Below, piece by piece: positions 22,255 through 39,266 of a stretch of DNA of 64,000 nt. Each line of letters opens with the position of its first letter. The stretch's first letter is position 1. A program made the translations under genes and the position numbers. The DNA comes from Prevotella sp. Its GTDB lineage: Bacteria; Bacteroidota; Bacteroidia; Bacteroidales; Bacteroidaceae. The notes under the pieces were generated by a model. It ran no database searches. It was not told the origin of the DNA and saw only the letters and a list, made by a program, of their open reading frames with translations. The stretch is from positions 62,001 through 126,000 of the forward strand of contig JAFSNR010000030.1 of NCBI GenBank assembly GCA_017443345.1, read 5' to 3'.

Positions 22255-22327
22255 CGGGATGTAGCGCAGTTGGTAGCGCACTACGTTCGGGACGTAGGGG
22301 TCGGGCGTTCGAGTCGCCTCATCCCGA
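22255..22327 (+). tRNA. tRNA-Pro (anticodon CGG)
   Basis: 73 nt forming a full cloverleaf: acceptor CGGGATG/CATCCCG, D stem GCGC/GCGC, anticodon stem CTACG/CGTAG with loop TTCGGGA giving anticodon CGG, T loop TTCGAGT, discriminator A, no encoded CCA. The integrase starts 160 bp downstream, so its 3' end is the likely attachment site of the adjoining element. Confidence 0.95.
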
Positions 22328-22349
22328 CTTTGGGCACTCAGTCGCAAGC

Positions 22350-22376: not shown

Positions 22377-22408
22377 TTAACTTTAAAGACGTGTCGCCCG
22401 AAAATAAG

Positions 22409-22487: not shown

Positions 22488-23672
22488 ATGAGTAAAAAAA
22501 ATAATTTTGCCGATTTCGACCCTACTCATAATGAAATAAAGGGTTATACCATCCCCCAGCTGGTGCAGGGTAAACGAAACTACGTATTCTTCTATGCCTT
22601 CGACCCTGTTTCAGGCCTCAGGAAGAGGAAGAAATATTTCCTTGGGCGTTGCAAGACCAAGAAGGATATGCTCCGGACAGCCAAGACCATGATCTATAAC
22701 ATCACCCGCAAGCTCGAGGGCGGCTGGAATCCCTGGATCGAAAATAGCGACTCGCTGACCTATGCACTTTTCTCGACTGTTACCGACCAGTACCACGACT
22801 ACCTCTATAAGCGGTTGAACGACAGGAGCCTGCGCGAGGACACTGTAGCAAGTTACGTCAGCTATCTGAACGTATTCACGACATGGATCGAGGAGAAGGG
22901 GGACGTGGTATACATGTTCCAGATGGACCACCACGTGGTATCGCGCTTCCTGGACTACGTCTATATCGAGCGGAACAACTCGTTCATAACGAGAAACAAC
23001 TACCTCGCCTGGCTGCGGAGCTTCTGCACCTATCTGACAGAGCGGGGATACATCAATCAGGATCCATGCGCCAGGTTCTCGAACATCAAGATCAAGGGAC
23101 ACACGAAGGAACGCACTGTCATCCCCGACGAAGTGATGCTGCAGATACGTCACTACCTGGAGTCGAAGAACCGACATTATCTGTTGGCCTGCTACCTTAC
23201 GCACTACCTGTGCATACGTCCGAAGGAGCTCTCGCGCATGCGCGTGGGCGATATAAATATAGGTAAGTGCACCATCACGCTGATGGGAGAACAGACGAAG
23301 AACCATAATAGCGTGACCATCACCATGCCCCAGAAGGTGGCCAGGCTGATGATCGACCTCGACATCTTCAGCGCCCATGGGGGCTGCTACCTCTTCAGTG
23401 TCGGCTTCAAGCCAGGCGAGAAGAAAAGAAGTGAGAAGCAGTTCAGGGACTACTGGCACCACCACGTCCGGAAGGATCTGAAGTTCTCCAGCAAGTATGC
23501 CTATTACTCGCTGAAGGACACCGGCATCACCAACATGCTCAGAAGCGGCGTAGACCCGATATCGGTCCGCGACCAGGCACGCCACAGTTCGCTGGCCATC
23601 ACCAACACCTATACCCCACTCGACCTGAAGGCGGCCAATCCGCTGATGCTGAAGTACGAAGGTATACTTTAA
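22488..23672 (+). CDS. Tyrosine recombinase (element integrase)
   Basis: 394 aa. Catalyses site-specific integration and excision of the adjoining element. N-terminal SAM-like core-binding region (TVASYVSYLNVFTTWIEE onward), then the catalytic domain with the first Arg in CIRPKELSRM, a Lys-bearing beta-hairpin region, then YYSLKDTGITNML at box II, RDQARHSSL with the second His, and the nucleophile in TNTYTP. Box II lacks the usual HxLRHT and reads YSLKDT; this form is seen in some Bacteroidetes integrases. It starts 161 bp after tRNA-Pro and its 3' end overlaps the convergent hub gene by 4 bp. Confidence 0.9.
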   Translation: MSKKNNFADFDPTHNEIKGYTIPQLVQGKRNYVFFYAFDPVSGLRKRKKYFLGRCKTKKDMLRTAKTMIYNITRKLEGGWNPWIENSDSLTYALFSTVTDQYHDYLYKRLNDRSLREDTVASYVSYLNVFTTWIEEKGDVVYMFQMDHHVVSRFLDYVYIERNNSFITRNNYLAWLRSFCTYLTERGYINQDPCARFSNIKIKGHTKERTVIPDEVMLQIRHYLESKNRHYLLACYLTHYLCIRPKELSRMRVGDINIGKCTITLMGEQTKNHNSVTITMPQKVARLMIDLDIFSAHGGCYLFSVGFKPGEKKRSEKQFRDYWHHHVRKDLKFSSKYAYYSLKDTGITNMLRSGVDPISVRDQARHSSLAITNTYTPLDLKAANPLMLKYEGIL

Positions 23673-25561
23673 TTAGTCACCACCTCGTAGAAATATCCCG
23701 TTTTCATCGGAGAAATACCCTCTCCGGTGATGGCCAGTTCGATGCGGTTGCAGATGAACTTCCGACAGTTGATGACATAGATCTTCTTAGGATCCGGCTT
23801 TCCATCGAAGAGGAAATCCACCTTGATCTCATTGTTGCCGTTGATGTTCCTGCGGATCTTAATTCCCTTGTTATGGAAGTTCCCGATGTGGCTGTAGTCA
23901 GCCGACGGGAAAAGCGACATCGAGCAGCGAGGGAGCTGCACCTTATCCGTATGACGGCACTCCGTGAACGGTACTGGATGCCAGACCGCCGACGGGTCAT
24001 CGACACCCCAGTTGCTCTCACTGTACTGTTTATGCAATTCCCAGGTGACCGTCTTATACCTGACACCTGAGGCGAACAGCAGCTGCATGGGTGTGTCATC
24101 GCTGCCAGTCTCCGGAACGGATTCACCGCCCTCGAGCACATCCTCGACAGTGACATAGTCAGCCGTACTGTCAGAATTGCCGGAGTACCAGGCACCCATC
24201 TCGGTCTGGTTCTCACATTCGATGTTTGGTACCAGGCAGTCGAAGGCATATTCCTTGTGCGGGATGATATATGCGCCGTTCTTACCATTGCCAGCCAGAG
24301 CTGTACAGAAATGACTTTCGCCCCATATCATGGCCACCGGCACAATCGACAGGCCGACAGTAGACGCCCCTTCCTTACGGATCAGCGGTGAGAACCAGCC
24401 GCACTCAACCAGGCTGTAGCCCGTAGTGTTCCCGTCATCATCGATGATGGAATGGCCGTAATACCACCCCACAGGGATCCTGAAGAGCGTGGTCATCTTC
24501 TCTTTGACCGACATCTGGGTAAAGGCGTTAAACGCCTCATTGTAAGCAGCGTATTCCCTGATCGTGAAACCCTTTTTCACGTCTTCAGAAACGACATCGA
24601 TGGTACGCTCCGAGTCTGAAAGCTCGAACTCGAGATTAGACGAGCCGAGATACTCGAGACCTTCCTCGTCGTAACCAGCTGAGAAATCCCCTGCAGGGGT
24701 GATGTATTCGGTACCGGAACCGCCGGACTCGCCGAAAGGAACCACAGACACCTGACTGTGTACCTCGTCGAAGAGGAACACCGCATTGAAGAGCTTGCGG
24801 AACTCATCCAGGAACTTGTAGCACGACCAGTGCGGCAGCGCGCGGGCCATGTTCAGCGACTTGCGGGCGCTGCACACATAAAGCTGGTTCCATGGGGATA
24901 CATTGAAGTCATTCCGGATGACTTTATAACCCAACCTTTGGAAAACCTTATCTAATACCATCATCAGATTAGGCTGCACGGCAGCGTTCATCAGTGTGAC
25001 GCCATTATCCGTGTCACCCTCTCTCATATAGCACAGCTGGTTTGCCCACCAGTCGTTAGTCTCGTCATGCGCCTGGTAGAAGACATACTTGCCCGGTTCC
25101 CCGATGAAACCGTTGGTATTGAGGTCGCTGACGAAGTTCAACTGGCTGATGCTGGTGGCACGGCCTATCTCCAGATTGCGGTATTTCTCTGCGACGGTAC
25201 CATAATCTATCTGATCGATATAGACGTTCTCGAACGACGCCTTATAGCGGAGGTAGGACTTTCCTGCGAGTATCTGGATCTTAACCTCGCTGGGCGTGAT
25301 GGACGTGATGGTACCCTTGCCTTGAATCACCTCGATGTTGTCAGCCATGAGTCGGCAATCCTCGAAGTCCTCAGACTCAAACGACGTATCGAGGCGGTTG
25401 AGGACACCGAACGCGGCAGCGTTCTGCGGTATGTCCATGGGGAAGATGACCTCCATGGTCTTTTCGTCACCATCCTTGATGAACGGGTTCTGGAGTGTTA
25501 CCTTGATATCACTCTGCGCTGCAGGGATGGCCTTCTGGCCGTTGATATAGCATACGATCAT
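23669..25561 (-). CDS. Phage tail hub/baseplate-like protein
   Basis: 630 aa. No strong family motif is recognised, but position directly after a tape-measure gene, size and beta-rich character (VTLQNPFIKDGDEKTMEVIF, KNGAYIIPHKEYAF) fit a distal-tail or hub protein. It overlaps the tape-measure stop by 4 bp (ATGA-type coupling). Last gene of the minus-strand array. It is present once although the tape measure is present twice. Confidence 0.55.
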   Translation of the reverse strand: MIVCYINGQKAIPAAQSDIKVTLQNPFIKDGDEKTMEVIFPMDIPQNAAAFGVLNRLDTSFESEDFEDCRLMADNIEVIQGKGTITSITPSEVKIQILAGKSYLRYKASFENVYIDQIDYGTVAEKYRNLEIGRATSISQLNFVSDLNTNGFIGEPGKYVFYQAHDETNDWWANQLCYMREGDTDNGVTLMNAAVQPNLMMVLDKVFQRLGYKVIRNDFNVSPWNQLYVCSARKSLNMARALPHWSCYKFLDEFRKLFNAVFLFDEVHSQVSVVPFGESGGSGTEYITPAGDFSAGYDEEGLEYLGSSNLEFELSDSERTIDVVSEDVKKGFTIREYAAYNEAFNAFTQMSVKEKMTTLFRIPVGWYYGHSIIDDDGNTTGYSLVECGWFSPLIRKEGASTVGLSIVPVAMIWGESHFCTALAGNGKNGAYIIPHKEYAFDCLVPNIECENQTEMGAWYSGNSDSTADYVTVEDVLEGGESVPETGSDDTPMQLLFASGVRYKTVTWELHKQYSESNWGVDDPSAVWHPVPFTECRHTDKVQLPRCSMSLFPSADYSHIGNFHNKGIKIRRNINGNNEIKVDFLFDGKPDPKKIYVINCRKFICNRIELAITGEGISPMKTGYFYEVVTN

Positions 25562-28500
25562 CTGTCATTCAGTTTTGTAAAGTGTTTATACTCTCGGTCG
25601 AAGGAGTCCATGGGGAACAGGATCTTGATACCGTTCTCCGTGACTACAGTATACAAAGCCTCTGTAGCCTCTGAATTGCGATCCAGAGACTGTCGCATCT
25701 CCTCATTATCGTTCTGGATATTCACGATGGGCGTGACTACTGCACTGCCACCCTGACCCAGCTGGCGTGAGATATCCTCGGCCGTGAGCGAACCCACGGT
25801 GTTGTTACGCTGTGCCTTATCGATGAAATCGAGCATAGGCCGGACGTTCGGGTTCTCAACGGCCTGATGGTTGGCCACGAACTCGCCCTGATGGACCACG
25901 CCTGCCTCTTTCCGGTACTGGCGGCCACCAGTGTAACCACCTGAGTAATAGCCTTCCTTCTGTGCCTCTTGCTGTTTCTGAATGGCAGCAATCTGGATCA
26001 TACCAGCAGCAAGGGCCATAGCAGCGAAAGCTGCAGCCACGATGGGAGCGGCAGGGCCTCCGACCTGAAGACCTGCACCATAGGCAGTAAGCGCGTTGAC
26101 AGCCATCTGGGAGAATGCCTGTGCCATCTGTACCTTCATCTGCTTGGCATTGTACTTATTCTTGATGGCCGCTTCCTCCTTGGCCTGTTTCTCCTGGAGT
26201 TTCTTCACCCTCTTCTGGTTATTCCCTGCAGCAGCTATCTGCTTCTCGTATTTCTTCTTGACCTGTGCAGTCTCATACTCCTGAGCAGCAGAGAAATACG
26301 AAGAGGCAGCAGACATAACCTGGTTGATAGAATTATAGGCAGCCTGGAACTGCGAGGCCAGATCAGCACAGAACTCAGCCGTAGCCTGCTGCTTGGCATA
26401 CTGGTAAGCTGCATAGTTCTCTTTGTCAGTGGCATAGAGCTCCTTCAGCTGCTCCATGGTAGCCTGGTATTGTTGTATTGCACCGACAAACGGAGTGCTG
26501 TAGTTGGTGTTGTCCTCCTGAGCCTTCTTATTGACGTTGTTACGTGCGTTTGCGAGCATCTGAGCACCCGTCTGCTTATTCTGCTCAGTAGGTGATACAC
26601 TGTTAGCGTACTGAGCCTGAATGGCTATTCTGGCACGCTGGAACTCCTCTTCCTCAAGTAGTCCTTCTTTGCGCAATTCCTGTAGTCCGTTGAGAGCGAT
26701 GGCCAACTGTCGCTCATTTCCCTGATTCAGATAGTTCTCGCGAAGTTCCTCAACCATCTCCTCATAACGTTTCTGACGATCAAGCTTATGCTGGAACTCG
26801 CGTTCCAGGATCTCTTCCTCGATTTCAACCCGTTCCTCGGAGCCCTTACGATACAGTTTAGCCTTATCTGTGAGGTATTCGATGTCCTCCTTATGCATAG
26901 CTTCCAGATATTCGCTTTCATCATCCCACTGCATAGATTCCAGCATGGCCACCCGGCTCTGATGCGCCATCTCGACCTTCCTTTGATCCATACGTTCCTG
27001 TCTTTCAACGGATTTCAGGTTGTACTGTTCCCTATCATTCAGTATCTTCTTGTATTCATCGGACTCTTCGTCCCAAATCTTTAGACGATTATCAAACCCC
27101 TCGAGAGTGATACGGTCCATTTCTGCAATGAAAGTCCTGTAGTCCCTTTCCCCTGCAGCATACAGTCGCAAGTTCTCCCCCAGATACCTTTCCGTTTCAG
27201 CTTTGGCCGCCTTGTCCTTGTCCTTCAGTTCTGCCAGTTCCTTAGCAGCCTGCTTCTTAGCTGCAGCTTCTGCAGCCTTGCGTGCTTTTTCCTCAGCCTT
27301 TGGATCCCTTAACGATTCCGGAGTATTCTGTTCCGACTTCTCCGTTGAAGGTTTGTTCTCAGCAGCTTTTGTGGCAAGTTTCTTCAATGTATTATCATTC
27401 TCCTTGATCTGCTTCTGTTTATCCAGAACGGCCTGCGCCCTCCGGTCATACTCTTCAATGAACCTGCGCCTGTTCAGTGAGACGTCACCATATACGCCCT
27501 GATCTTTCTTTTTTGCATCATCATATTTATTCCAGTTTGCATTGAGCCATTTCCTCTCCTTTTCAATTTCATCTTCAATATCAGAATTTCTTTTGGCTAC
27601 CTCCGTCATCTTATCTTCATAAGCCCTGGCTTTAGCAGCAGCAACAATCTCTTCAGACAGTTTCCTATAGGCATTTGCAGCTTTACCAGCAAGAATCTCC
27701 TCATCAGTCAAATCCTTGAAATAGGAAGGATATTGCTCACGGAGGTCAGCAATCAGCCCCTTACGTGTCTCCAGCTTCACATTGACATCCGTGATAGCCC
27801 TGTAAAGTGCATTCAGCTTGTTTGTCTCTTCATTCGCATTTTTTGCCGCAACCTTTTCTGCATCACCGATATCATTGATGGTCTTTGCAGCCTCCTCGCT
27901 TTTCTTGGTGAATTGTATCAGCCATGTCACTGCGGTAGCGATACCCGCTGCAACCAGCATGTAAGGGTGTTTTGACAATACTTTCCAGAGGCTACTACTA
28001 GCCTTCTTCAGTTTATCAGTCCAGAGAACCTGAATTTTCTTTTTTGCTATGTCGAGTTCTTCAGCAACCACCAAAGCAGAAATAGCTACAGTCAATGTAA
28101 TTACCGTTGCCTTGTATTTGCCGCATATCTCCATCAGGCCGCTCAGCAGTCTTATGATCATGGAAGTTCCGGAGATACCATACCTTGCTATCGGCATGAG
28201 CTTCTCGCCCAGTTCGATGGCGATATCATGAAACTCCTTCCTGGCCTTCTCCAATTGTGCCTGGACTGTCTCGTTCTGGATATTGAATTCACTGACAACA
28301 GACTTTCCCTTATCGAAGGCCTCTGTGGCAATGCGCTGGCGCTCGGCCACGTCATCGACTTTATCCCCAAGGGTGGAGAGTACGCCGATGGCACGCTGCC
28401 CGTCGAGGTTCATGGCATCGAACACCTTGCCCAGATCCTGCATGTCACGTCCACGCAGGCTCTTGGCGACTGCGAGGATGGCTCCGTTGATATCCTCCGT

Positions 28501-30069
28501 TACCAGTTTCTTGTATTCCTCGACCTTCATGCCCGTGAGACGTGCGAAGGTGTCGAGGTCGGTAGTCATCTTCACCAGCAGCTGACCAAAGGCGGTGGCA
28601 GCCATCTCGTCACGAAGCATGTTCTCGTCCATCACGGCACCGAATCCCATGATCTGAGTCTGGGTTAATCCAACCTGACGACCGAAGCCTGCCACACGGG
28701 CGGTGAAGTCCACCAGGTAGCCTGCAGAGGCAGAAGAGTGCTGTGCCAGTTCGTTGACGGCAGAGCCGGTTGCCAGCATAGCATCCTTCAGTCTTTTCTC
28801 TTTATCAGTACCGAAAGCCATGGTAAGCTTACCGATATTCTTAACCGCGTTCTCGCCCAAGTCGTCACCCAATGCGACATTTATCGTATCTGCTGCCTCT
28901 ACAAATTCCATGATAGCCTCCTTGCCCTGGATGCCCAGACGACCGGCATCCCCGGCCAACTGATTCAGTTTCTCGCGGGAGGTGCGGGTGTCCATGGCCT
29001 TGAACTCCTCGTTCATCTTGTGCACCTCTTCAGAGGTCTGTCCTGTGTATTTGCGGACATTCTCCATCTCCTGGTCCATCTTGGCAAAGGCGTCCGTACT
29101 CTTCAGTACGGACTCCCTGAGTTTATTGAATCCTGCAATGCCGACGATCCAGGTTCCCTGAAGTTTGTTGAAGAAATCAGCTGTTCGGCTCAGCATTCCC
29201 TGGCTGGCCTTACCCTCATAGCGGGTCTTCTCTAATTCAGTACGTAGTTTCTTGACCTTCTTCTGTGCCTCTTCATAAGCTTTTCCACGATCCATATTCC
29301 GCATCTGCTCATTGAGCATTTTGATGGAGTATTCCAAGTCTCTAACTTTGGCAGTAGAAAGATTATTAAGAGTATTATCTATTATTTTGTTCTGCTCAGC
29401 AACATTTGCGAGTTCCTTCTCGCTTTTGCTGATTTCCATTTTGTATTGTTCCACCAAAGTGTTTACATGCTGCTGTTCAAGTTTTATCTCCTGGATCCTT
29501 GACTTTATTTCCCTTAACTGGTTTAAACGATCGTTGTCTATAGCTGGTCCCGCGCTACCATTTGCCATTTCCTGTTCGAGAAATTTCTGGGCCGAAAATA
29601 ACTGGTTAAGAGAAGCACCCTTTACATCTTTCATGACTGTAGAGAGGTTCTCCATACTGGCGCTCAATTCTTCAGACTCGTTCCTTGCCTCTCTGGTGGT
29701 ATTCCTCAGTTCCTTAATTCGCCTGTCAACCTCTTCAATCTGTTTCTGCTTCTCCTGCCATTCCGGGGTGTCAGGGAGCATGTGGGAGGCATCTTCCTTC
29801 AGTTTCCTCAACGACTTTCTCAGGTTGGCAGACGAGACCTCGGCAACGTTGGCCATTACCTTACCTGTCCCCTCAATCTGGTACTTGAACTCATCATATT
29901 TCTTAATGGCATTAATAAGTTCTTTCTCATCAAAGAACCCTCCCGTCTTTAAAGCCTCTTCTTTTTTTCTCCTAAGGCTTTCAAGTTTTTTCTCTAGTTG
30001 CTTCAGGTGATCCTGTGCCTGCTCAGAGTTGAGTTCAATCGTCGTTACGTATCTTTCGTTATGTGCCAT
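25558..30069 (-). CDS. Phage tail tape measure protein, copy 2 (full length)
   Basis: 1503 aa. Sets tail length and carries the membrane-penetrating segments. N-terminal ~290 residues are coiled coil (NSEQAQDHLKQLEKKLESLR), then a TP901-type tape-measure core (about 330-640; NIGKLTMAFGTD, DFTARVAGFGRQVGLT, GFGAVMDENMLRDEM, AMNLDGQRAIGVLSTLG), hydrophobic segments near 660-740, a long charged coiled coil (about 850-1250), an Ala/Gly-rich hydrophobic stretch (MAVNALTAYGAGLQVGGPAA), and the C-terminal GGYTGG...AGVVHQGEFVANHQA motif common in tape measures. At roughly 1.5 angstrom per residue it would fit a tail above 200 nm. Its promoter lies inside a hairpin just upstream. Confidence 0.93.
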   Translation of the reverse strand: MAHNERYVTTIELNSEQAQDHLKQLEKKLESLRRKKEEALKTGGFFDEKELINAIKKYDEFKYQIEGTGKVMANVAEVSSANLRKSLRKLKEDASHMLPDTPEWQEKQKQIEEVDRRIKELRNTTREARNESEELSASMENLSTVMKDVKGASLNQLFSAQKFLEQEMANGSAGPAIDNDRLNQLREIKSRIQEIKLEQQHVNTLVEQYKMEISKSEKELANVAEQNKIIDNTLNNLSTAKVRDLEYSIKMLNEQMRNMDRGKAYEEAQKKVKKLRTELEKTRYEGKASQGMLSRTADFFNKLQGTWIVGIAGFNKLRESVLKSTDAFAKMDQEMENVRKYTGQTSEEVHKMNEEFKAMDTRTSREKLNQLAGDAGRLGIQGKEAIMEFVEAADTINVALGDDLGENAVKNIGKLTMAFGTDKEKRLKDAMLATGSAVNELAQHSSASAGYLVDFTARVAGFGRQVGLTQTQIMGFGAVMDENMLRDEMAATAFGQLLVKMTTDLDTFARLTGMKVEEYKKLVTEDINGAILAVAKSLRGRDMQDLGKVFDAMNLDGQRAIGVLSTLGDKVDDVAERQRIATEAFDKGKSVVSEFNIQNETVQAQLEKARKEFHDIAIELGEKLMPIARYGISGTSMIIRLLSGLMEICGKYKATVITLTVAISALVVAEELDIAKKKIQVLWTDKLKKASSSLWKVLSKHPYMLVAAGIATAVTWLIQFTKKSEEAAKTINDIGDAEKVAAKNANEETNKLNALYRAITDVNVKLETRKGLIADLREQYPSYFKDLTDEEILAGKAANAYRKLSEEIVAAAKARAYEDKMTEVAKRNSDIEDEIEKERKWLNANWNKYDDAKKKDQGVYGDVSLNRRRFIEEYDRRAQAVLDKQKQIKENDNTLKKLATKAAENKPSTEKSEQNTPESLRDPKAEEKARKAAEAAAKKQAAKELAELKDKDKAAKAETERYLGENLRLYAAGERDYRTFIAEMDRITLEGFDNRLKIWDEESDEYKKILNDREQYNLKSVERQERMDQRKVEMAHQSRVAMLESMQWDDESEYLEAMHKEDIEYLTDKAKLYRKGSEERVEIEEEILEREFQHKLDRQKRYEEMVEELRENYLNQGNERQLAIALNGLQELRKEGLLEEEEFQRARIAIQAQYANSVSPTEQNKQTGAQMLANARNNVNKKAQEDNTNYSTPFVGAIQQYQATMEQLKELYATDKENYAAYQYAKQQATAEFCADLASQFQAAYNSINQVMSAASSYFSAAQEYETAQVKKKYEKQIAAAGNNQKRVKKLQEKQAKEEAAIKNKYNAKQMKVQMAQAFSQMAVNALTAYGAGLQVGGPAAPIVAAAFAAMALAAGMIQIAAIQKQQEAQKEGYYSGGYTGGRQYRKEAGVVHQGEFVANHQAVENPNVRPMLDFIDKAQRNNTVGSLTAEDISRQLGQGGSAVVTPIVNIQNDNEEMRQSLDRNSEATEALYTVVTENGIKILFPMDSFDREYKHFTKLNDR

Positions 30070-30129: not shown

Positions 30130-30330
30130 CTAATGCTTGGACATTTTATTCAGTTCCTCTATGAATTCCCGATCTCTCTCAAGGCATTTTCTCTGGAATT
30201 CAATAATCTCTTCTTCAGTCATTTTCTCGCTGCCGAGAGAGTTAATTCCTTTACCCAGCTTCTCCAAGCCCTTCCAGATCAGGATGACCAGAAGAAGCAC
30301 AGCACCGAATAAAGAATCACAACCAAACAT
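30130..30330 (-). CDS. Small single-span membrane protein before tape-measure copy 2
   Basis: 66 aa from ATG 30330 (MFGCDSLFGAVLLLVILIWK); an upstream in-frame start would add 8 charged residues. One N-terminal membrane segment, then a charged helical tail (EEEIIEFQRKCLERDREFIEEL). A purine-rich GAAAGGAAAGAG lies upstream. It has the same position and topology as the 64-aa protein before tape-measure copy 1. A tail chaperone is unlikely because of the membrane span; function unknown. Confidence 0.65.
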   Translation of the reverse strand: MFGCDSLFGAVLLLVILIWKGLEKLGKGINSLGSEKMTEEEIIEFQRKCLERDREFIEELNKMSKH

Positions 30331-30480: not shown

Positions 30481-30513
30481 AAAGCCCTCGATTCTCACGA
30501 ACCAAGAGGCTTT
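30481..30513 (-). terminator. Terminator after tape-measure copy 1
   Basis: Stem AAAGCCTC / GAGGGCTTT (minus strand, one bulged base) followed by TTTTTTT. It stands 28 bp after the chimeric gene, matching the terminator behind the intact spanin-like gene. Confidence 0.75.
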
Positions 30514-30540: not shown

Positions 30541-33500
30541 TTATCTGTTTTTCCGAATAGCCGGGTAAAGGCCTATCGCGAATACGGCCAATGCCCAGGA
30601 AGCAACACCTGACCACATCTGGAACTGCTGCCACCATGCCAAAGGCTTTTCCACCGTCACCCTTACCTCTTTCTTGCTGTCACGTTCCTTCACAAGCTCG
30701 TGGATGGCATCGTTGAAGAGATTCTTGTAATAAGCGGTAGAATCAGTCTCAGTATGATGTTCCTTAACGCTGTGGTATTCCTTGATTTGTTTGACATATG
30801 CAGCCTGGAACTGCGATACCAGATCAGCACAGAACTCAGCCGTAGCCTGCTGCTTTGCATACTGGTAAGCTGCGTAGTTCTCCTTGTCATTGGCATAGAG
30901 AATCCTCAGCTGCTCCATGGTAGCCTGGTATTCCTGGACGGCCCCGACAAACGGCGTACTGTAGTTGGTTTTGTTCTCCTGAGCGTTCTTATTGACATTG
31001 TTACGGGCATTGGCCAGCATCTGTGATCCTGTCTGCCTGATCTGCTCTGTAGGAGAGACGGCACTGGCATACTGCGCCTGAATGGCGATGCGGGCACGCT
31101 GGTACTCCTCTTCCTTGATCCGACCCTGACGATGCAGCTCTTCGAGGCCGTTCAGGGCAATCTCCATCTGTCGCTGGTTGCCCATATTCAGGTAACGCTC
31201 GCGCAGTTCCTCGACCATCTCGGCATAACGCTGTTGACGCTCCAGCTGATGCTGATATTCCCTTTCTGTAATCTCATCTTCAATCTCTACACGCTCTTCA
31301 GATCCTTTCCGGTAAAGGGCAGCCTTGTTCTGGAGGTAGTTGATATCCTCCTGATACATAGCCTCCAGATATGCCCCTTCATCATCCCATTGTTTTGACT
31401 GGAGCTCAGCAACGACGCTCTGATGAACCAGCTCGACTTCCCGCTGATTCATGCGTTCCTGGCGTTCTACGCTCTTCAGGAAATAAGTTTCCCTGTCATT
31501 CAGGATCTTTTTATATTCATCGGATTCTTCATTGTAGATGGCCAGACGCTTGTTGAATCCATCCAACTGAATACGATCAATCTCACTTATATATTTGCGG
31601 TAGTCTATTTCACCCTTGGCATAGCGGTTCATGACGATAGCCAGTTCCTGCTCTGTCTGAGCTTTGATGGCATCGTTACGTTCCTTCAGCTCTTTCTTCT
31701 GCTGAGCCTCCAGCTTCTTTGCTGCAGTTTCTGCAGCCTTACGAGCCTTATCTTCAGCTTCGGGGTTTATAATGGGATCGGGCTTATTTTCTTTCTCTTT
31801 GTGACGATTCAGAATTTCCTGAAGATGACGGTTAGCCCGGTCTTCCATGTCCTCCACCACTATCCCTGTTAGCTCCGGATATTTCTTATATATAGCCTGA
31901 CGCTGCTTTCCGGCATCCTCGATGATACGATTCTGTTCGTCGAACTGTTTGAGAAGCTGCTTGGTCTCGTTATCGCCTACAATCGTTTTGTTGATACCCC
32001 TTAGCATGTTGATGTTCTTGTCATCACCAAGCTTCTCTCGCAGTTTTTCAATTTCCACGCTTGCTTTTGCGATATCGCCACCGATATCCTTTAGCATTTC
32101 TCCGGCACCTTCAAGCTCAAATTTCTTAGCAAGAGACTGGAGGTATTTGTCAAGAGCCTCTTTGTTCTCGACATACTTCTTTGTAGTTTCATTCAGTTGG
32201 CCATTATAATTCGGGATGATCCGGTTCAGCTCATCGATGGCCTTCTTGCGATTCACAAGAGATGCGTTTTCATTACGGGCAGTGACAAGCAGCAAATCCA
32301 GCTTGGATTTTTCTTCACCGTATTTTTTAGCAGCCTCTGTCCTTACCCGATTCAGTTTATCTGTAGCTTCAGCAGCTTCCTTCGACTTTGTCACCAAGTC
32401 GGCTATTGCACCTACAGCCAAAAGAGCACCGGTAGCCAACGCTGTCCAAGGGTTCTTTTTCATGACAACGAGAAGCTTTTCCACTGCGACGGCCAGTTTA
32501 GTGTTCCAGAACACACCCAGTTTGGTTACAGCCACATCAGCCTCTTTCTTCAGCACAAGGTAGGCAATGGTGGTTGACAAAATAGCAATCGTATATTTGA
32601 ATTTACCAATGAAGTTCGCAAGTTCCGACAAGATCTTTATAACTGCCGAAGCCGTTGTCATTCCGTATCTGGCAATAGGCAAAAGTTTCTCTCCCAGTTC
32701 TACCCTCAGGTCGTTGAATTGTTTCTTGGCTTTCTCAAGACCAGCCTGTACCGTTGTGTTCTGTATGTTGAACTCCTCGGTGATGGAAGTACCCTTTCTG
32801 AAGGCTTCATTAGCTATGCGCTGGCGTTCGGCTACGTCATCGACCTTATCCCCAAGGGTAGCAAGCACACCGATTGCGCGCTGACCGTCGAGGTTCATGG
32901 CGTCGAACACCTTGCCGAGATCCTGCATGTCACGACCCTTCAGACTACGTGCGACAGTAAGGATGGCCCCGTTAATATCCTCAGTCACCATCTTCTTGAA
33001 CTCCTCAGAAGTCTTACCCGTTATCCTGGCAAACGTATCAATGTCCGTTGTCATCTTCACCAGCAGCTGGCCAAAGGCGGTGGCAGCCATCTCGTCACGC
33101 AGCATATTTTCGTCCATGACGGCACCAAAACCCATGAGCTGAGTCTGAGTCAGTCCTACCTGTTTGCCGAATCCTGCTACTCTGGCAGTGAAGTCCACCA
33201 GGTAGTTTGCAGCAGCTGAAGAATTCTGGGAAAGTTCATTCACAGCAGAACCAGTTGCAAGCATGGCTCCACGCAGCCCCATCTTCTTATCAGTGCCAAA
33301 TGACATGGCCAGCTTACCGATATTCTTAACGGCACCATCGCCAAGGTCATCCCCAAGGGCGACATTGATTTTGTCGGCAGCATCCACGAAGTCCATGATG
33401 GCCTCCTTGCCCTGAATTCCCAAACGTCCGGCATCTCCTGCCAGTTGGTTCAGTCTTTCTCTCGATGTCCTAGTATCCAGCCGTTTGAACTCCTCGTTCA

Positions 33501-34554
33501 TCTCATGCACCTGTTCAGTAGTCTGGCCAGTGTACTTGCGCACATTCTCCATCTCCTGATCCATATCCGCAAAGGCTTGAATAGCCCTCCGGACAGTCAA
33601 TGTCAGACCTGTAATTGAAGAAAGTCCAACAATCACAGTGCCCTGCACCTTATTGAAGAAATCAGCCATCCGGCTCAACGTGCCCTGTTGTGCCGCACTT
33701 TCATATCTGACTCTCTCCAGCTCTGTACGCAGTTTCTTGGCCTGCTCCTGCATCCTCTCGAACTCCTGAGTACCACGAGGCAGTTCCCTAAGTCTCTCGT
33801 TCACAATCTTGATGGAATACTCAAGGTCACGAACATTAGCCTTCGAGAGATTGTGCATGGTTTTATCAACCAAATCAGTCTCCCTGGCAGTCACGTTTAT
33901 ATCTTTGTTTACTTTCTTGATTTCTGCATCGTACTTGTCCATCAAGGTAACAGTAACTTGTTGCTCAGCCTTTATCTCCTGTATACGTGCTTTTATTTCC
34001 TTAAGCTGGTCTGTACGGATGTTCTTCAAAACAGGTTCTTGGCCTTTTGCCAGTTCCTCTTCAATATACTTCTGAGCAGACATCAATTCATTCAATGATG
34101 CACTCTTTATGTTATTGACAACCTTAGACAGATTCTGGGTATTCTCAGAAAGAGCTTTTGCCTGTTCGCTGCTCTCTCGGAATGAGTTTTTAAGCTGCTT
34201 AATGCGGTCTTCCAGAACCAACACTTGCTGCTGGTTGTTCCTCCACTCTTCACTATCAGGAAGCATGTTAGCTGCCTGACGTTTCAACTCACGAACTGCT
34301 TTCTGCAATCCACTCAATGACATATCATCGATATTCTCGAGAATACCATGAATACCTTTGATCTGTCCATTCAGTTGATTGAACTCACGTACAGCTTTCT
34401 TCAGTTCCTTTTCATCGAAGAAGCCGCCAGACTTGGCAGCATCTTCCTTAGCCTTTTTGAGATCCTTTACTTTCTGCTCTAGCTCCTTCAGGCGGTTCGT
34501 AGCCTGCTGGGAGTTGAGCTCAATGGTTGTTACATATCTTTCGTTCTTGGCCAT
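30541..34554 (-). CDS. Phage tail tape measure protein, copy 1 (chimeric C-terminus)
   Basis: 1337 aa, a close paralog of copy 2 through residue ~1250: coiled-coil N-terminus (NSQQATNRLKELEQKVKDLK), TP901 core (AMNLDGQRAIGVLATLG, GFGAVMDENMLRDEM), hydrophobic segments and charged coiled coil; the region about 720-960 diverges. After SQFQAAY the similarity to copy 2 stops. The last ~85 residues (VKQIKEYHSVKEHH..., ending WWQQFQMWSGVASWALAVF...RKNR) resemble the C-terminus of the spanin-like protein (WWKTFLMWSGAIWYVIFG...VRR). The Ala-rich region and GGYTGG motif are missing. It is therefore likely a recombination product and may not work as a tape measure. Confidence 0.9.
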   Translation of the reverse strand: MAKNERYVTTIELNSQQATNRLKELEQKVKDLKKAKEDAAKSGGFFDEKELKKAVREFNQLNGQIKGIHGILENIDDMSLSGLQKAVRELKRQAANMLPDSEEWRNNQQQVLVLEDRIKQLKNSFRESSEQAKALSENTQNLSKVVNNIKSASLNELMSAQKYIEEELAKGQEPVLKNIRTDQLKEIKARIQEIKAEQQVTVTLMDKYDAEIKKVNKDINVTARETDLVDKTMHNLSKANVRDLEYSIKIVNERLRELPRGTQEFERMQEQAKKLRTELERVRYESAAQQGTLSRMADFFNKVQGTVIVGLSSITGLTLTVRRAIQAFADMDQEMENVRKYTGQTTEQVHEMNEEFKRLDTRTSRERLNQLAGDAGRLGIQGKEAIMDFVDAADKINVALGDDLGDGAVKNIGKLAMSFGTDKKMGLRGAMLATGSAVNELSQNSSAAANYLVDFTARVAGFGKQVGLTQTQLMGFGAVMDENMLRDEMAATAFGQLLVKMTTDIDTFARITGKTSEEFKKMVTEDINGAILTVARSLKGRDMQDLGKVFDAMNLDGQRAIGVLATLGDKVDDVAERQRIANEAFRKGTSITEEFNIQNTTVQAGLEKAKKQFNDLRVELGEKLLPIARYGMTTASAVIKILSELANFIGKFKYTIAILSTTIAYLVLKKEADVAVTKLGVFWNTKLAVAVEKLLVVMKKNPWTALATGALLAVGAIADLVTKSKEAAEATDKLNRVRTEAAKKYGEEKSKLDLLLVTARNENASLVNRKKAIDELNRIIPNYNGQLNETTKKYVENKEALDKYLQSLAKKFELEGAGEMLKDIGGDIAKASVEIEKLREKLGDDKNINMLRGINKTIVGDNETKQLLKQFDEQNRIIEDAGKQRQAIYKKYPELTGIVVEDMEDRANRHLQEILNRHKEKENKPDPIINPEAEDKARKAAETAAKKLEAQQKKELKERNDAIKAQTEQELAIVMNRYAKGEIDYRKYISEIDRIQLDGFNKRLAIYNEESDEYKKILNDRETYFLKSVERQERMNQREVELVHQSVVAELQSKQWDDEGAYLEAMYQEDINYLQNKAALYRKGSEERVEIEDEITEREYQHQLERQQRYAEMVEELRERYLNMGNQRQMEIALNGLEELHRQGRIKEEEYQRARIAIQAQYASAVSPTEQIRQTGSQMLANARNNVNKNAQENKTNYSTPFVGAVQEYQATMEQLRILYANDKENYAAYQYAKQQATAEFCADLVSQFQAAYVKQIKEYHSVKEHHTETDSTAYYKNLFNDAIHELVKERDSKKEVRVTVEKPLAWWQQFQMWSGVASWALAVFAIGLYPAIRKNR

Positions 34555-34560
34555 AAAAAA

Positions 34561-34595
34561 CGTGCTATCTTTGATTTTTCGACAAAGATAGCACG
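34561..34595 (-). promoter_or_regulatory. Hairpin with embedded promoter before tape-measure copy 1
   Basis: Perfect 13-bp inverted repeat CGTGCTATCTTTG / CAAAGATAGCACG with a 9-nt loop, followed on the minus strand by TTTTTT and then the ATG at 34554. The 5' arm carries TATCTTTG (minus, 34583-34590). Same design as at 30077 with a different stem sequence. Confidence 0.8.
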
Positions 34596-34618
34596 CAAGG
34601 CCTCATTATAAAAATACA

Positions 34619-34813
34619 CTACCAGCGCTTCGCCTTCCGGATCTCTTCCAGCTGTTTCCGTGCCCTTTCGCTGTTCTCGCGGGCCACCCTGTTGAGGAAA
34701 TCGCGGTCAGACTCCTTATAGCCCTTGCCGCTGCCACCGAGCCAGTCTGCACCCTTCAGCAGCGCGATGACCGCCCAGGCTCCGAATACTCCTATGATAA
34801 ATGCAAGTTCCAT
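34619..34813 (-). CDS. Small single-span membrane protein before tape-measure copy 1
   Basis: 64 aa from ATG 34813 (MELAFIIGVFGAWAVIALLK). One membrane segment, then GADWLGGSGKGYKESDRDF and a charged helix. An unusually strong AAAGGAGGA ribosome-binding site stands 5 bp upstream and fixes this start over a longer frame that would cross the hicB terminator. Positional equivalent of the 66-aa protein at 30130. Confidence 0.75.
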   Translation of the reverse strand: MELAFIIGVFGAWAVIALLKGADWLGGSGKGYKESDRDFLNRVARENSERARKQLEEIRKAKRW

Positions 34814-34835
34814 AACATCCTCCTTTTTTAAAAGT

Positions 34836-34861
34836 GCCCCGACACGGCTCAGTGCCGGGGC
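34836..34861 (-). terminator. Terminator of hicAB
   Basis: GCCCCG-CAC / GTG-CGGGGC stem with a short loop; on the minus strand it is followed by ACTTTTAA. It lies 33 bp after the hicB stop and separates hicAB from the tail genes. Confidence 0.8.
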
Positions 34862-34894
34862 GTCACTCAAATAGTGTACTGTCAAATAACAAAA

Positions 34895-35293
34895 TCAGAG
34901 TGTTATGCTGAGTATCTCACGAGCGAACTTATGCAGTCCGCTGATGATGCGGTCGGCCTGTTTCTGACGTGGTACGGCACGGTGATGAAGGTAGTTGGAG
35001 AGCTGCTTCTGATTGATGCCCGTCATACGCTCCAGCCCAGCCAGAGAGAGGAACCCACCATAGTACTCCAGGAAACTTGGTACATCGAACTTCCACTCTA
35101 TTTCAAAATCACCCTTTATCTGCTCAGGCCAACGGTCTTTAGGAAGATTGCGCTTGATACCATCGATGGCTTTTAAGGTGTCAGCTTTGACGGCCTCTAT
35201 GTCGGGGCCTGCAGCATAGATGCCTTCACAATTCTCTGACATAGCCCCGTAATAGTCACTTGACTTTCCAATTAACATAACGATCTTTTCCAT
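34895..35293 (-). CDS. hicB: HicB-family antitoxin
   Basis: 132 aa. N-terminal HicB fold (SDYYGAMSENCEGIYAAGPDIEAVKADTLKAI), which neutralises HicA, and a C-terminal Cro/CI-type helix-turn-helix (LERMTGINQKQLSNYLHHRA) for autorepression. It follows hicA by 30 bp in the same direction. Confidence 0.88.
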   Translation of the reverse strand: MEKIVMLIGKSSDYYGAMSENCEGIYAAGPDIEAVKADTLKAIDGIKRNLPKDRWPEQIKGDFEIEWKFDVPSFLEYYGGFLSLAGLERMTGINQKQLSNYLHHRAVPRQKQADRIISGLHKFAREILSITL

Positions 35294-35323
35294 ATACTTA
35301 TTCTTTTTAGAAGTACGGGAGGA

Positions 35324-35503
35324 TTAAATCCCGTACTTTTTGATTAACTTACTCGATAAGAACTTAGGCATCTCATGTGCTCCGTGATAGGGAATGGGCT
35401 CTGTCATCTCACCATCTTTCACATAGTAGTAATGACTGCCCTCTGCATGGTCGAATTTCCATCCGGCTTTCTTGAATCTGTTGTGAATCTCTGAGAACTT
35501 CAT
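35324..35503 (-). CDS. hicA: HicA-family mRNA-interferase toxin
   Basis: 59 aa from ATG 35503 (MKFSEIHNRFKKAGW); a longer in-frame version would begin upstream of the promoter. dsRBD-like HicA fold with the catalytic His in GSHYYYVKDG and the closing PKFLSSKLIKKYG. Translation-dependent mRNA cleavage is the known family activity. First gene of hicAB. Confidence 0.88.
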   Translation of the reverse strand: MKFSEIHNRFKKAGWKFDHAEGSHYYYVKDGEMTEPIPYHGAHEMPKFLSSKLIKKYGI

Positions 35504-35530
35504 TTTACTGATATTTGTTATTTGACACTG

Positions 35531-35538
35531 CAAAGATA
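35531..35538 (-). promoter_or_regulatory. -7 box of hicAB
   Basis: TATCTTTG followed by CAGTG, 27 bp before hicA. It gives the module its own transcription inside the phage-like array. Confidence 0.8.
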
Positions 35539-35612
35539 GTAAAAATTCTATTATTCTCCAAATTTTAAGCAAATAAAAATAGAAATATTTCTATTATTTA
35601 ACACTTAGGGAA

Positions 35613-35656
35613 CACGAAAAGCCCTTTTCTATCCATCTCGGACGGGAAAGGGCTCA
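35613..35656 (-). terminator. Terminator after the lysis cassette (copy A of a 44-bp repeat)
   Basis: AGCCCTTT / AAAGGGCT stem with U-run TTTTCG on the minus strand. The 44-bp segment recurs at 39103-39146 with five differences. Confidence 0.8.
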
Positions 35657-35694
35657 GAACAATGAAAGACAATTATTAATGATATAGGGAACAG

Positions 35695-36243
35695 TTATCG
35701 TCTAACTACTTTTACTACCATTATGATTCCGAATATCACATACCATATTGCGCCAGACCACATCAGGAACGTCTTCCACCAGGGGATCTGCTTCTCACGG
35801 ATCTCCGTCTTGGTATAGGTGACGCGTCTGGTTTTCCACAGTGTCTTCTCTTTTTCCACGACGGGCACCGTATCCTCCTTCTCGATCTTCTGCGGGATGT
35901 TCTCGAGTGAATGGAAAAGGAGAGGCATTTCACCCTGCCATCTGAGCGAAGCTGTACTCCTTGCAAATTGCGTCTCCAGATAGGAAGTCGTATCCGGCGT
36001 CTCACGTTCCTTGCTCTCTGCAGGGACTTCCACAATCACTTTTACTGGCTTCTCGACAATCTTTTCAATATATTCGATCCTGACAGAATCGGACTTTTCT
36101 TCCGACTCGCTCACGCTGCTTTTGACAGCCTTACAGCTGCTGAAGAACAAGATCACCAGCAGTATGACGATACAAATGAGGCTGAAGCAACAGGACTTCA
36201 TGCTTTCGCCACTCCGTCTTGATTTCTCTTCGTAGTAGTCCAT
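35695..36243 (-). CDS. Spanin-like two-ended membrane protein of the lysis cassette
   Basis: 182 aa from ATG 36243 (MDYYEEKSRRSG). An earlier in-frame ATG would run ~90 bp into the amidase gene. N-terminal hydrophobic segment with a lipobox-like FFSSC, a charged, Glu/Lys/Val-rich linker (IEYIEKIVEKPVKVIVEVP), and a C-terminal membrane segment (FLMWSGAIWYVIFGIIMVV). Topology and place after holin and amidase suggest a spanin-type or envelope-bridging role; no sequence family is recognised. Its C-terminus is the part found fused to tape-measure copy 1. Confidence 0.6.
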   Translation of the reverse strand: MDYYEEKSRRSGESMKSCCFSLICIVILLVILFFSSCKAVKSSVSESEEKSDSVRIEYIEKIVEKPVKVIVEVPAESKERETPDTTSYLETQFARSTASLRWQGEMPLLFHSLENIPQKIEKEDTVPVVEKEKTLWKTRRVTYTKTEIREKQIPWWKTFLMWSGAIWYVIFGIIMVVKVVRR

Positions 36244-36253: not shown

Positions 36254-36913
36254 TTAAATGTCCCTGTATTCATTCCTGGCATCGAACGACGGGCAGGTCT
36301 TGCCTTTCTTGTCGTAGTTCCGATGGCCTGATATCTCAGCATGAGGATAGAGCCTGCGGAGCTTTACCAACAGATCCACAAGGGCCAGTTTCTGGGCCTC
36401 TGTGCGGGTATCCTTGGACGGGAGCTCGCTGACGGGCTTGCCCGGGATGTTCTCGAGGCCACCGACGTAGACGATGCCGATACTGTAAGAGTTGTACCCC
36501 TCGCAATGGGCACCTGCTATATCGACGTCACGGCCAAGGTGGACGCTGCCATCGCGGTAGATGATATAGTGATAACCGATATCGCTCCAACCGTTACCCT
36601 TGGGCTTGGGTGCCGTGTGCCACTCACGTATCTGATCGACCGTGTAGTCCTTTCCCTCAGGCGTGGCGGTGCAATGTACCAGGATAAGGTCAATGCGACG
36701 CCTGGAGCGTTTAAGGATGATGCCGTCATCAGGAATGAGCGCGGCCCATGTCTTCGGACCTGCCACTCCATCAGGAAACAGCCCGGCATCATTCTGGAAG
36801 GCTTTCAGGGCCTCGAGTGTGATGTTACCAAATATACCATCAGGGTAGACGTTCAGCAGCTTCTGCAGCTTCACTACATCAGGCCCTTTAGAGCCAAGTT
36901 TCAGTACTGTCAT
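36254..36913 (-). CDS. N-acetylmuramoyl-L-alanine amidase (endolysin)
   Basis: 219 aa. Residues ~5-58 form a PG_binding_1 domain (GSKGPDVVKLQKLLNVYPDG, PDGVAGPKTWAAL). Residues ~70-215 are an Amidase_2/PGRP domain like T7 lysozyme, with zinc ligands in VHCTATPEG and GAHCEGYNS and the Cys in GKTCPSFD, plus GYHYIIYRDGSVHLGRD. It cuts the amide between MurNAc and L-Ala. It has no signal peptide, so it depends on the holin 2 bp upstream. Confidence 0.93.
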   Translation of the reverse strand: MTVLKLGSKGPDVVKLQKLLNVYPDGIFGNITLEALKAFQNDAGLFPDGVAGPKTWAALIPDDGIILKRSRRRIDLILVHCTATPEGKDYTVDQIREWHTAPKPKGNGWSDIGYHYIIYRDGSVHLGRDVDIAGAHCEGYNSYSIGIVYVGGLENIPGKPVSELPSKDTRTEAQKLALVDLLVKLRRLYPHAEISGHRNYDKKGKTCPSFDARNEYRDI

Positions 36914-36915: not shown

Positions 36916-37374
36916 CTATTCGTATTTTTCGTTCTTTTTATTGACGTATTCACCGTTGTCGTTGAAGTCCTTCATGCGTTTCAGGATCCACGGGGGAAGG
37001 ACAGGATAGATTGCGTTGATATTTTCGAGGACGGAGATAGCCTCACGCAGCAGCATCGCCACGCACAGGTATTCGCCGAACCATTGTGTGGTACCGACGA
37101 CATGGCCGTTCACCGTGTAGTTGATCAGAACATTTGAAAGGATGAGCAGGATGATGTAGATAAAGATCTTCTTTGCGAACTTGTTCCAAAAATCCTCACT
37201 GGAGAGATCCTTGCAGATCCAGTGCTTTACCAGTCCCAGGACCGTATCGATTGCGACGGCAATCCCTATCCACTTTGCAAACTCCCAGTCCCTGTAGAAA
37301 TAATCCAGAATGTTCACCCCGATGGTCAGGGGGAGTGAACCTGTTATTGCTATGACAGTCTTGAAATGCAGCAT
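36916..37374 (-). CDS. Holin-like membrane protein
   Basis: 152 aa from ATG 37374 (MLHFKTVIAITGSLPLT), just after a TATCTTTG promoter; a longer frame would begin in the preceding terminator. Three to four hydrophobic segments with DTVLGLVKHWICKDLSSEDF between them, which fits the phage_holin_4 (Cph1/toxin-secretion) family. It would form lesions for the amidase encoded 2 bp downstream. Confidence 0.75.
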   Translation of the reverse strand: MLHFKTVIAITGSLPLTIGVNILDYFYRDWEFAKWIGIAVAIDTVLGLVKHWICKDLSSEDFWNKFAKKIFIYIILLILSNVLINYTVNGHVVGTTQWFGEYLCVAMLLREAISVLENINAIYPVLPPWILKRMKDFNDNGEYVNKKNEKYE

Positions 37375-37497: not shown

Positions 37498-37878
37498 TTA
37501 TACAATACCTAGCCACTTTTTGGCCAGAGTCTTAGCGTACTCGCAGAACTGGTTATAGTCCTCCCACTCATCCTGATACTGTTCGAAGGAGTTCTGGTAG
37601 TGACGGTGGATGGCCATCTCCTCGCTCAGTGAGAAGCGTGAGCGGATGATGGCGTTGACCATGCAGCCGTAGTCCTGCGGATCCTCACAGGGCAGTAAGG
37701 TACCTCCGTCCTGACGAGGGCCGGTGTAGCTGTAGCCCGTGATGGCAGGCGCATCATCAGGGGCATTGTCCTGTTTCCAATTCTCTACGATGGTCTCTCC
37801 GAGGAAACCGATGATTTGTGCGTCACCGAAGGTGAAAAACGTTTTCGGCTCAGCGTAAGTTACAGTGTTCATATTCAT
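37498..37878 (-). CDS. Hypothetical protein coupled to the reverse transcriptase
   Basis: 126 aa, soluble, acidic. Features: TFFTFGDAQIIGFLGETIV, YSYTGPRQDGGTLLPCEDP, and an aromatic helical C-terminus (HYQNSFEQYQDEWEDYNQFC). No family recognised. It starts 1 bp after the reverse-transcriptase stop, so the two are co-translated and may act together. Confidence 0.6.
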   Translation of the reverse strand: MNMNTVTYAEPKTFFTFGDAQIIGFLGETIVENWKQDNAPDDAPAITGYSYTGPRQDGGTLLPCEDPQDYGCMVNAIIRSRFSLSEEMAIHRHYQNSFEQYQDEWEDYNQFCEYAKTLAKKWLGIV

Positions 37879-37879: not shown

Positions 37880-38812
37880 CTATGTAAACTTTGTGTAATA
37901 CTTGCCGTCCTTGCCCTTGACCTGCATGATAACCGTGGGAGCAGGCAGATCCTGAGGCGAGAAATCGTTCAGTGCCTGGTCAATCATGATCCTGCTGCCT
38001 GAGAAAGCGTAGTACTCTGCATCGATGTCCGTGGGCTGTCCCAACTCGTCAAGCATCTTCTCGAAGATGTAAGTCTCACTGTCTTCACCGTTCATACCAG
38101 TGGTCGTGAACGTCTGGAGTATCTTCTTGAACCTGATGGCCAGCACCTTCGCCGGTATCTGTCGCGTGATGTCCTGCTGACGTCCCTCGGAGTCAGCCTC
38201 CCTGACAGTCACCGTATCCTTATCAATCTTGGAATCCTGTACCAGGTAGTCCAGCAAATAGATCTTGGGACCTCCAATTTTACCCCCCCCCCCGTCGTTG
38301 TCAAGATTCTTTACCACCAACGATGAGAAAGGCACTTTCTGGTTGGGGGTCATACCCTTGAATGGTGGTCTCACACGACGGTTCTTAATGATCTTTCCTA
38401 ATGATTTTTCCATACCGAATTTCTTGAATAGGTTTATTGAGTTTGCATGTTTGATATATCCGAAGTTGGAAGCCAGCGTGACGCGGATCTGCTCCTCGTC
38501 GAGTCCCCGTTTCCTGAGCTCGTGCACCTTCCGTGCGGTGTCCTGCTTGTTGCGCTTAGACACCAGCACGTTCTCATGGAAGAAGGTGTATCCGCAGAGG
38601 CGAATGCCCATCCAGACAGGGCGTACCTGGTAGTCACCGTTGATCGTGGCCCTGTAGTCACGCACGAGCACCATGATGGTGAGGTCGCGCATGCAGCGGA
38701 GAAACACCTTATCCTCATGGATGATCAGGATGTTATCCACGAAACGGTAGTAGTGCAGGATTCCCTCTTCGAAGATGGAAGTGATGCTTCGTCGTGCAAA
38801 GTTCAGAGATTT
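37880..38812 (-). pseudogene. Reverse transcriptase, 5'-truncated (C-terminal part)
   Basis: The open frame runs from a stop near 38815 to 37880; a GTG at 38738-38740 is internal and not a credible start. The retained part begins with HYYRFVDNILIIHEDK, where FVDN stands at the YxDD catalytic motif (RT motif 5). It continues with NGDYQVRPVWMGIRLCGYTF, VLVSKRNKQDTARK and ASNFGYIKHANSINLFKK, the order GxxFxGY / RKR / GWxKH seen in phage-borne Bacteroidetes RTs, including those of diversity-generating retroelements. A ~170-residue extension ends FSGSRIMIDQ...KYYTKFT, reminiscent of an OB-like domain. RT motifs 1-4 are lost at the 38.79-kb junction. An 11-G run lies in frame at 38283-38293. Confidence 0.8.
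38283..38293 (-). repeat. 11-base homopolymer (G on the coding strand) in the RT gene
   Basis: Eleven C on the plus strand encode the GGGG of DNDGGGGKIGG. It is the longest G/C run in the window and could slip. Confidence 0.9.
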
Positions 38813-39053
38813 TTATGACTTGTATTCAATCCTTAAAAGTGGCATTGACATTCAGGAGTTGATACCACTTGCATTAGAGCATTCTGATCATAAGCTAAAG
38901 CTGAAGAATCTGTTAGCCATGATCACAAATGGAGATTTCTTCAGCAGGGACAGCCAATTTGAAAAGCTATATCCAATTTATGATGTGACTCCTACTGATA
39001 TTCAAGAATACATCAAGGCACAGTTACAAAGCGGAGTGTCAGTCTCTGGGTAG
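38790..39053 (+). pseudogene. AbiEii/AbiGii toxin-family C-terminal fragment
   Basis: About 87 residues: RRAKFRDFYDLYSILKSG, then HSDHKLKLKNLLAMITNGDF and VTPTDIQEYIKAQL. The RAKFRDFYDLY motif marks the C-terminal helix region of AbiEii nucleotidyltransferase toxins, which are ~250-300 aa. The nucleotidyltransferase core and any AbiEi antitoxin gene are missing. It joins the truncated reverse transcriptase head to head at about 38.79 kb. An ATG at 38775 is an accident of the junction. Confidence 0.7.
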
Positions 39054-39102: not shown

Positions 39103-39146
39103 CACGAAAAGGCCTTTTCTATCCATCGCGGACGGAAAAGGATTCA
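39103..39146. repeat. Copy B of the 44-bp lysis-terminator repeat
   Basis: Matches 35613-35656 at 39 of 44 bases. The stem is weaker (CCTTTT / GAAAAGG). No lysis gene stands beside it. Confidence 0.8.
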
Positions 39147-39266
39147 AAAATTGAGCACTATGGTTCATTGTACAATAATATTTTTCTATTCTACCTCTAC
39201 TTATCATTCGTGAATTTTCCGCTAAAGTGCTGATTTTATTGGTTTTTTTTAAGCTTTAGGATAAAC

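Follow-up and report, generated by a model that had tools for sequence, protein, structure and literature searches.

Tape measures of the TP901 type carry the domains TIGR01760 and PF10145, and the two tape-measure genes of the locus described here, A and B, share PF10145, with TIGR01760 also found in B (the NCBIfam scan covered B). Compared with such proteins, A is without the normal last ~250 residues and has a spanin-like tail instead. Unimolecular spanins (u-spanins), of the phage T1 gp11 type, need their lipoprotein end; the tail of A shares their C-terminal membrane segment and part of their periplasmic region, but lacks the lipoprotein N-terminus and is fused to a tape measure. Defective prophages can arise by deletion or by recombination between prophages. 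The window, by which we mean the whole stretch of 64,000 nucleotides analyzed, shares mosaic modules, deletions and a lost attachment site with such prophages and does not differ from them in principle (for a Campylobacter example, see PMC10782988). The statement, in an excerpt of PMC12596118, that Bacteroidetes phages use only unimolecular spanins fits the u-spanin reading of the tail. Nine related loci, comprising the IMG/VR records L085–L092 and the Prevotella MAG locus L004, were compared with the window proteins by tblastn; their tape measure and 'hub' genes stand in the same order as in the window, with one tape measure each and no fusion.

The window is part of a contig of 139 kb in a draft genome that totals 4.16 Mb (204 contigs, 92% complete), and it contains a prophage remnant at 22.3–38.8 kb. 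The left end of the remnant is closed by a tRNA-Pro gene (cgg; 22255..22328, plus strand, called with ARAGORN), the probable attachment site, and the adjacent tyrosine integrase (22488..23672, plus strand; PF00589, 1.5e-10; phrog_1, 2e-31). All other remnant genes lie on the minus strand, and their order begins with a cut reverse-transcriptase gene (37880..38770; phrog_1423 'Reverse transcriptase', 1.1e-11) that retains the 3' part and a C-terminal extension and has lost the 5' part. There follow a 126-aa gene (37498..37878; 79% identical to L088, without a family match in the Pfam or PHROG scans, and suggested to be a tail chaperone from position alone), a holin (36916..37371; PF05105, 7.4e-13), an amidase endolysin with a peptidoglycan-binding domain (36254..36913; PF01510, 4.1e-16; PF01471, 4.5e-13), a u-spanin-like gene (35695..36243), a HicA-type toxin (35324..35503; PF07927, 1.6e-9) and a HicB-like gene (34895..35293), named from its position after HicA, which gave no match in the Pfam scan and has homologues in L091, L101 and L102. 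Next are the small membrane-protein gene of module A (34619..34813; 77% identical to the gene in the same place in L088 and 57% in L089), tape-measure A with its tail, a terminator-like hairpin (30485..30508, from the terminator scan) and the small membrane-protein gene of module B (30130..30330). The latter was recognized by eye, gave no match in the Pfam scan and matches in position the small TM genes of L105, L088 and L007. The series ends with the full-length, 1503-aa tape-measure B (25558..30069; PF10145, 9.1e-16; TIGR01760, 1.1e-24) and the tail protein 3' of it (23669..25561), named 'hub' in the initial annotation and given a role from position alone, for which Pfam and NCBIfam scans returned no match. 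A hub homologue stands 3' of the tape measure in all nine related loci.

Tape-measure A is an intact frame of 1337 aa (34554..30541, minus strand), and B is likewise intact. The first 1253 codons of A (30796..34554) match tape-measure families (PF10145, 1e-14; phrog_25337, 1.8e-52), and the alignment with B holds up to the motif SQFQAAY, which ends at residue 1253. The switch claimed there by the initial annotation, at about base 30798, is confirmed and can be placed three bases further on: divergence begins with a GTC codon that starts at base 30795. Beyond this base the A frame stays open for 84 residues that are unrelated to B and end in a C-terminal hydrophobic segment; the normal C-terminal region of a tape measure, kept in B, is absent from A, which departs from both B and the relatives after residue 1253. 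The last 55 bases before the switch are 94.5% identical between A and B (blastn). In successive 60-base windows approaching the switch the identity is 70, 70, 70, 85, 83 and 93%; it is 78% in the window straddling it and 38–42% past it. The exact 34-base junction is absent from the viral contigs searched. Comparison with the nearest tape measures gave no obvious microhomology at 30.80 kb, and a close copy of the spanin parent was not found.

The tail (30541..30795; 84 codons plus stop) resembles the 3' portion of a u-spanin gene, encoding the C-terminal membrane segment and some of the periplasmic region. In the chimera tape-measure A stands where a spanin would have its lipoprotein N-terminus, and the tail is accordingly a spanin fragment and not a spanin. 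The parallel first drawn between a tail of about 85 residues and the end of the spanin-like gene in the window holds up: the observed Smith–Waterman score was reached in 0 of 5000 shuffles, in which the soluble and membrane parts were shuffled separately. An HMM of 12 spanins scored the tail at 27.7 bits (E = 5.2e-7), and none of 4000 shuffles exceeded 15.1 bits; the C-terminal 84-residue segments from five other spanins received 27.6 (L038) to 70.2 bits (L040) from this HMM, that of L096 receiving 31.0. Pairwise comparison with the same 12 spanins gave a best-of-12 score and a sum over the 12 that were each reached in 0 of 1000 shuffles. The HMM members, chosen among 32 matches of an earlier ten-spanin HMM, comprised the window spanin, nine spanins of amidase loci and two (L011 and L090) from loci fetched with tape-measure A; L118 and L130 (both from amidase loci), L019, L068, L069, the tail-fetched spanins and copies of the window were left out. 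As L011 and L090 were fetched with the whole of A, tail included, a slight selection leak attaches to the HMM result, of which the pairwise test with the window spanin is free.

Two other profiles were constructed. The earlier HMM of ten spanins (41.6 bits for the tail; best of 4000 shuffles 16.0) was biased, because seven of its ten members had been fetched using the tail, and it was replaced. A broader HMM was made from the window spanin and 11 lipobox-plus-TM genes next to amidases: 14 of 80 amidase loci had no ORF just downstream, and of the remaining 66 ORFs 11 were kept for a lipobox-like motif with a C-terminal TM segment, three with the TM segment only and 52 with neither being dropped. 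This HMM failed to recognize the tail (7.3 bits; best shuffle 14.6), and is itself weak, as the last 84 residues of two of the five other spanins score only 12–13 bits with it.

The nearest relative found for the tail is the spanin of viral locus L096, with 37% identity over 73 residues from tail residue 6; identity to the window's own spanin is lower, at 33% over 60 residues. The L096 spanin (163 aa) combines a lipobox with a hydrophobic segment at the C-terminus, and by eye its gene is preceded by one for a membrane protein and by an amidase-like one. L096 was the one viral locus found with the tail as query, and nothing was returned at E 1 from 50,697 phage records. Across 299 genomes of the genus (own genome included), the tail gave a strong match only in its own, the best match elsewhere being E = 5.8e-4; 38 genomes, again including its own, had a match at E ≤ 0.1, mostly very weak.

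The u-spanin-like gene of the window runs from 36243 to 35695; an alternative listed start, at 36342, falls inside the amidase gene. Its N-terminal hydrophobic segment carries a cysteine in a loose lipobox (FFSSC), clearer in the spanins of L038 (LLAGC) and L096 (MLTGC), and that of L105 reads LLCGC, outside the lipobox pattern used for the broader HMM set. The C-terminal membrane segment is present, as read from the sequence aligned with its relatives. With this spanin as query, 41 of the 299 genomes gave a match at E ≤ 0.01 and, besides its own, five places (G229, G133, G225 and two in G114) matched at 1e-9 or better; the viral contigs yielded no confirmed relative. The initial annotation had described both the chimera and the spanin-like gene as followed by a terminator, a small membrane-protein gene and, next, a tape measure. 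This arrangement stands in full for the chimera, with its hairpin at 30508–30485. After the spanin-like gene a terminator at about 35655–35615 can be read by eye and is missing from the list of the terminator scan, and the HicA and HicB-like genes intervene before the small membrane gene and tape-measure A.

The nine related records are not all independent, since L086 and L087 are near-identical. Tape measure and hub are followed next by an integrase in eight of the nine, the exception being L085, which ends inside the hub. Each has one tape-measure frame (pieces in one frame being taken as one) that matches B to residue 1473–1503. Matches to A end at residue 1253 in eight of the nine; that of L004 (25.7% identity) extends to 1332, and the L004 tape measure has no spanin-like tail at its end. 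A weak 27% alignment in genome G011 also passes the switch, to 1327 of the query. In 150 genomes, 24 (own included) matched tape-measure A. The search for intact relatives that naturally end in such a membrane-anchored tail found none in one relative among genome contigs, eight viral loci from the A query and three from the B query (the same contigs as L086–L088), the C-terminus being ordinary in all nine records. Among those of the stronger genome matches to the tail itself whose frames were inspected, no natural spanin-tailed tape measure was seen either.

These comparisons bear on the idea that the fusion of tape measure and spanin tail is under selection and functional, as a membrane-anchored tape measure. 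The 1337-codon frame is intact and the join in frame, as such a gene would have it, but an in-frame join is expected by chance one time in three, the fusion occurs in none of the nine related records, no strong tail match lies outside its own genome among the 299, and the prophage is defective; we consider a functional chimera extremely improbable. The same small credence goes to a specific form of it, in which the chimera would act, for example, at the inner membrane as an inhibitor tying up tail assembly in superinfecting relatives, the HicA/HicB-like pair and the lysis genes being maintained alongside. Most likely the chimera is without function, as a tape measure that has lost its C-terminus and ends in the inner-membrane anchor of a spanin lacking its lipoprotein end.

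Unfused modules, sought as counterparts of the two modules in the window, do exist. Locus L105 shows the module B order, in which genes for a holin-like protein, an amidase, a u-spanin and a 110-aa membrane protein precede a tape measure and the beginning of the hub. Locus L007 shows, from the contig edge, a spanin-like end and HicA-like, HicB-like and small membrane genes, all identified by eye, ahead of a tape measure, which is the module A order; its tape-measure match contains one in-frame stop. Lysis-type genes, with roles assigned partly by eye, stand directly before the tape measure in L085, L087, L090, L092 and L011, the last of them resembling a u-spanin in L090 and L011, while L085, L087 and L092 have a different type there, anchored at its N-terminus. 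L088 and L089 have a small membrane gene before the tape measure and an amidase about 20 kb upstream. The reverse transcriptase and the 126-aa gene are found upstream in five records (L085, L087, L088, L089 and L090). No genome with modules A and B side by side was found.

The two tape measures resemble different phages. A is 72% identical to L088 and L089 and 61–64% to L085–L087; B is 68–69% identical to L086 and L087 over its whole length and 55–61% to L085, L088 and L089. A and B are 58% identical to each other over 1278 residues, falling to 17–28% at residues 701–900. In that interval A is 47–67% identical to L085, L088 and L089 and 12–33% to L086 and L087, and B is 65–71% identical to L086 and L087 and 16–26% to L085, L088 and L089. 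Mosaicism is visible as well: A is nearest L086/L087 in residues 1–200, and B is nearest L088 in several windows. Modules A and B thus appear, from these comparisons, to derive from different phage lineages. A tandem duplication in one phage, doubling in place the segment from the spanin interior to the tape-measure interior with later divergence of the copies, would give exactly the observed gene order in a single event, and the close likeness of A and B just before the junction (93% in a 60-base window) also speaks for it. Against it, each copy has a phage relative nearer than the other copy, at 72% for A with L088/L089 and 68% for B with L086/L087, and the tail is nearer the L096 spanin than that of the window. 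Duplication in place is unlikely because the two copies resemble different phages over most of their length, and we rate it as very improbable.

The reading we favor, with a probability of about 0.88, is that of a decayed prophage in which a deletion or a non-homologous recombination event fused A, after codon 1253 and in frame, to the interior of a related phage's u-spanin gene. Past the join, module B would then continue in its normal order, with the spanin end, terminator, small membrane gene, complete tape measure, hub and integrase. The likeliest route would be two related prophages at the same tRNA-Pro, collapsed by deletion; the window integrase is 81–84% identical to the integrases of A-like and B-like phages alike (L086–L089). 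A second non-homologous event would account for the loss of the opposite end, beginning within the reverse transcriptase. Of the two-module fusion proposed by the initial annotation, the non-homologous join of a tape measure to a spanin tail is borne out; tandem ancestry of the modules is plausible, and we infer it, as we do the order of events, from the arrangement of what is left.

A variant with no tandem stage would have a resident prophage recombine with an incoming related phage through a non-homologous crossover at 30795, the other side being resolved by homology in the 3' end of the tape measure or in the hub; the arrangement left behind would be identical to that of a tandem collapse. 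The hub is 75% identical to L088 vs 52% to L087 and is nearer to L088/L089 in nine of ten 200-base windows, as if the downstream genes of A had been kept, and A–B identity peaks near the junction. Against this variant, the 3' end of copy B shows no one position at which its affinity clearly switches, and mosaicism among the relatives gives the same pattern. A hub nearer the A-like phages indicates either that module B is mosaic or that A retained its own downstream genes. We regard this variant as a close alternative to the tandem route, though the less likely of the two.

The joining of A to the spanin tail is accompanied by a second non-homologous junction, at about 38770, where the cut phage reverse transcriptase meets a C-terminal fragment of an AbiEii-family gene (38767..39053, plus strand; PF08843, 6.2e-5). 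Before 38770 the sequence is 75–77% identical to the reverse transcriptase of L087–L089; from 38767 on it is 85–90% identical to AbiEii-family genes of three congeneric genomes (G213, G131 and G257), and the two matches overlap by at most 4 bases. No head gene was recognized among the larger proteins scanned (Pfam, PHROG). The integrase is in place beside the tRNA-Pro, and no same-strand repeat of at least 13 bases of 22255–22520, as expected for a right attachment repeat, occurs elsewhere in the window. Among eight related loci scanned for a tRNA on the integrase side, L091 has a tRNA-Pro, L004 a tRNA-Met and six have none, which counts against the favored reading. The region from 22.3 to 38.8 kb is a case of ordinary prophage decay.

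The same data speak to an assembly artefact, in which two prophages were misjoined in the genome sequence. The draft state of the assembly (204 contigs, 92% complete) and a further tape measure on contig C132 lend this some substance. Against a misjoin, the tail occurs once in the assembly with the frame open through the join, and genuine decay is indicated by the other non-homologous junction. The remaining contigs moreover lack both another hub and L088-like upstream genes: of the genome that holds the window, only the remnant is matched by the 9.7 kb 5' of the tape measure in L088, and no second close hub is present in the assembly, the sole other hub relative being a 28% match on C132. We regard misassembly as improbable. 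The C132 match belongs to a separate phage-type locus (G000:C132:3333-8002), with a tape measure (37%) and the hub relative.

On the favored reading, a decayed prophage with a non-homologous join, the chimera would be a relic of an accidental join between two related viruses, a commonplace type of event that leaves the general view of phage biology unchanged. It would provide a clean record of recombination and decay among related Prevotella-type prophages, and it carries a warning for annotation: where an annotated tape measure ends in a spanin-like membrane segment, that end may be the scar of a deletion. The comparison also brings out a phage group with tape measure, 'hub' and integrase in that order, often with lysis genes just upstream. 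No paper on a tape-measure/spanin fusion appeared among the titles and abstract openings of the matches listed.

The relatives also show features of the retroelement. L088 carries a diversity-generating retroelement with a variable repeat at 6876–6989 and a template repeat at 7220–7333, 344 bases downstream; the repeats lie just before the reverse transcriptase, and all 14 core differences, counted by eye, fall at A's of the template. The window retains only the 3' part of such an L088-type reverse transcriptase (37880–38770). Reverse transcriptase and an extra C-terminal stretch share one frame in L087 (5941–7593; 550 aa) and L085 (6095–7741), and lie in different frames in L088 (7491–9144) and L089, which may reflect fusion, frameshift or sequencing error.

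Several repeats were observed at and to the right of the remnant. A 47-base stretch at the spanin-gene terminator (35613–35659) recurs with 87% identity at 39103–39149, beside the AbiEii fragment. Direct-repeat arrays lie at 39267–39321 (11-base TTTTACTTCTA unit) and 39616–39976 (21-base units), together with paired TTTTACTACCATACT motifs. The stretch around 39267–39326 recurs in many congeneric genomes, and 39381–39600 recurs at 82% identity on contig C77 of the same genome.
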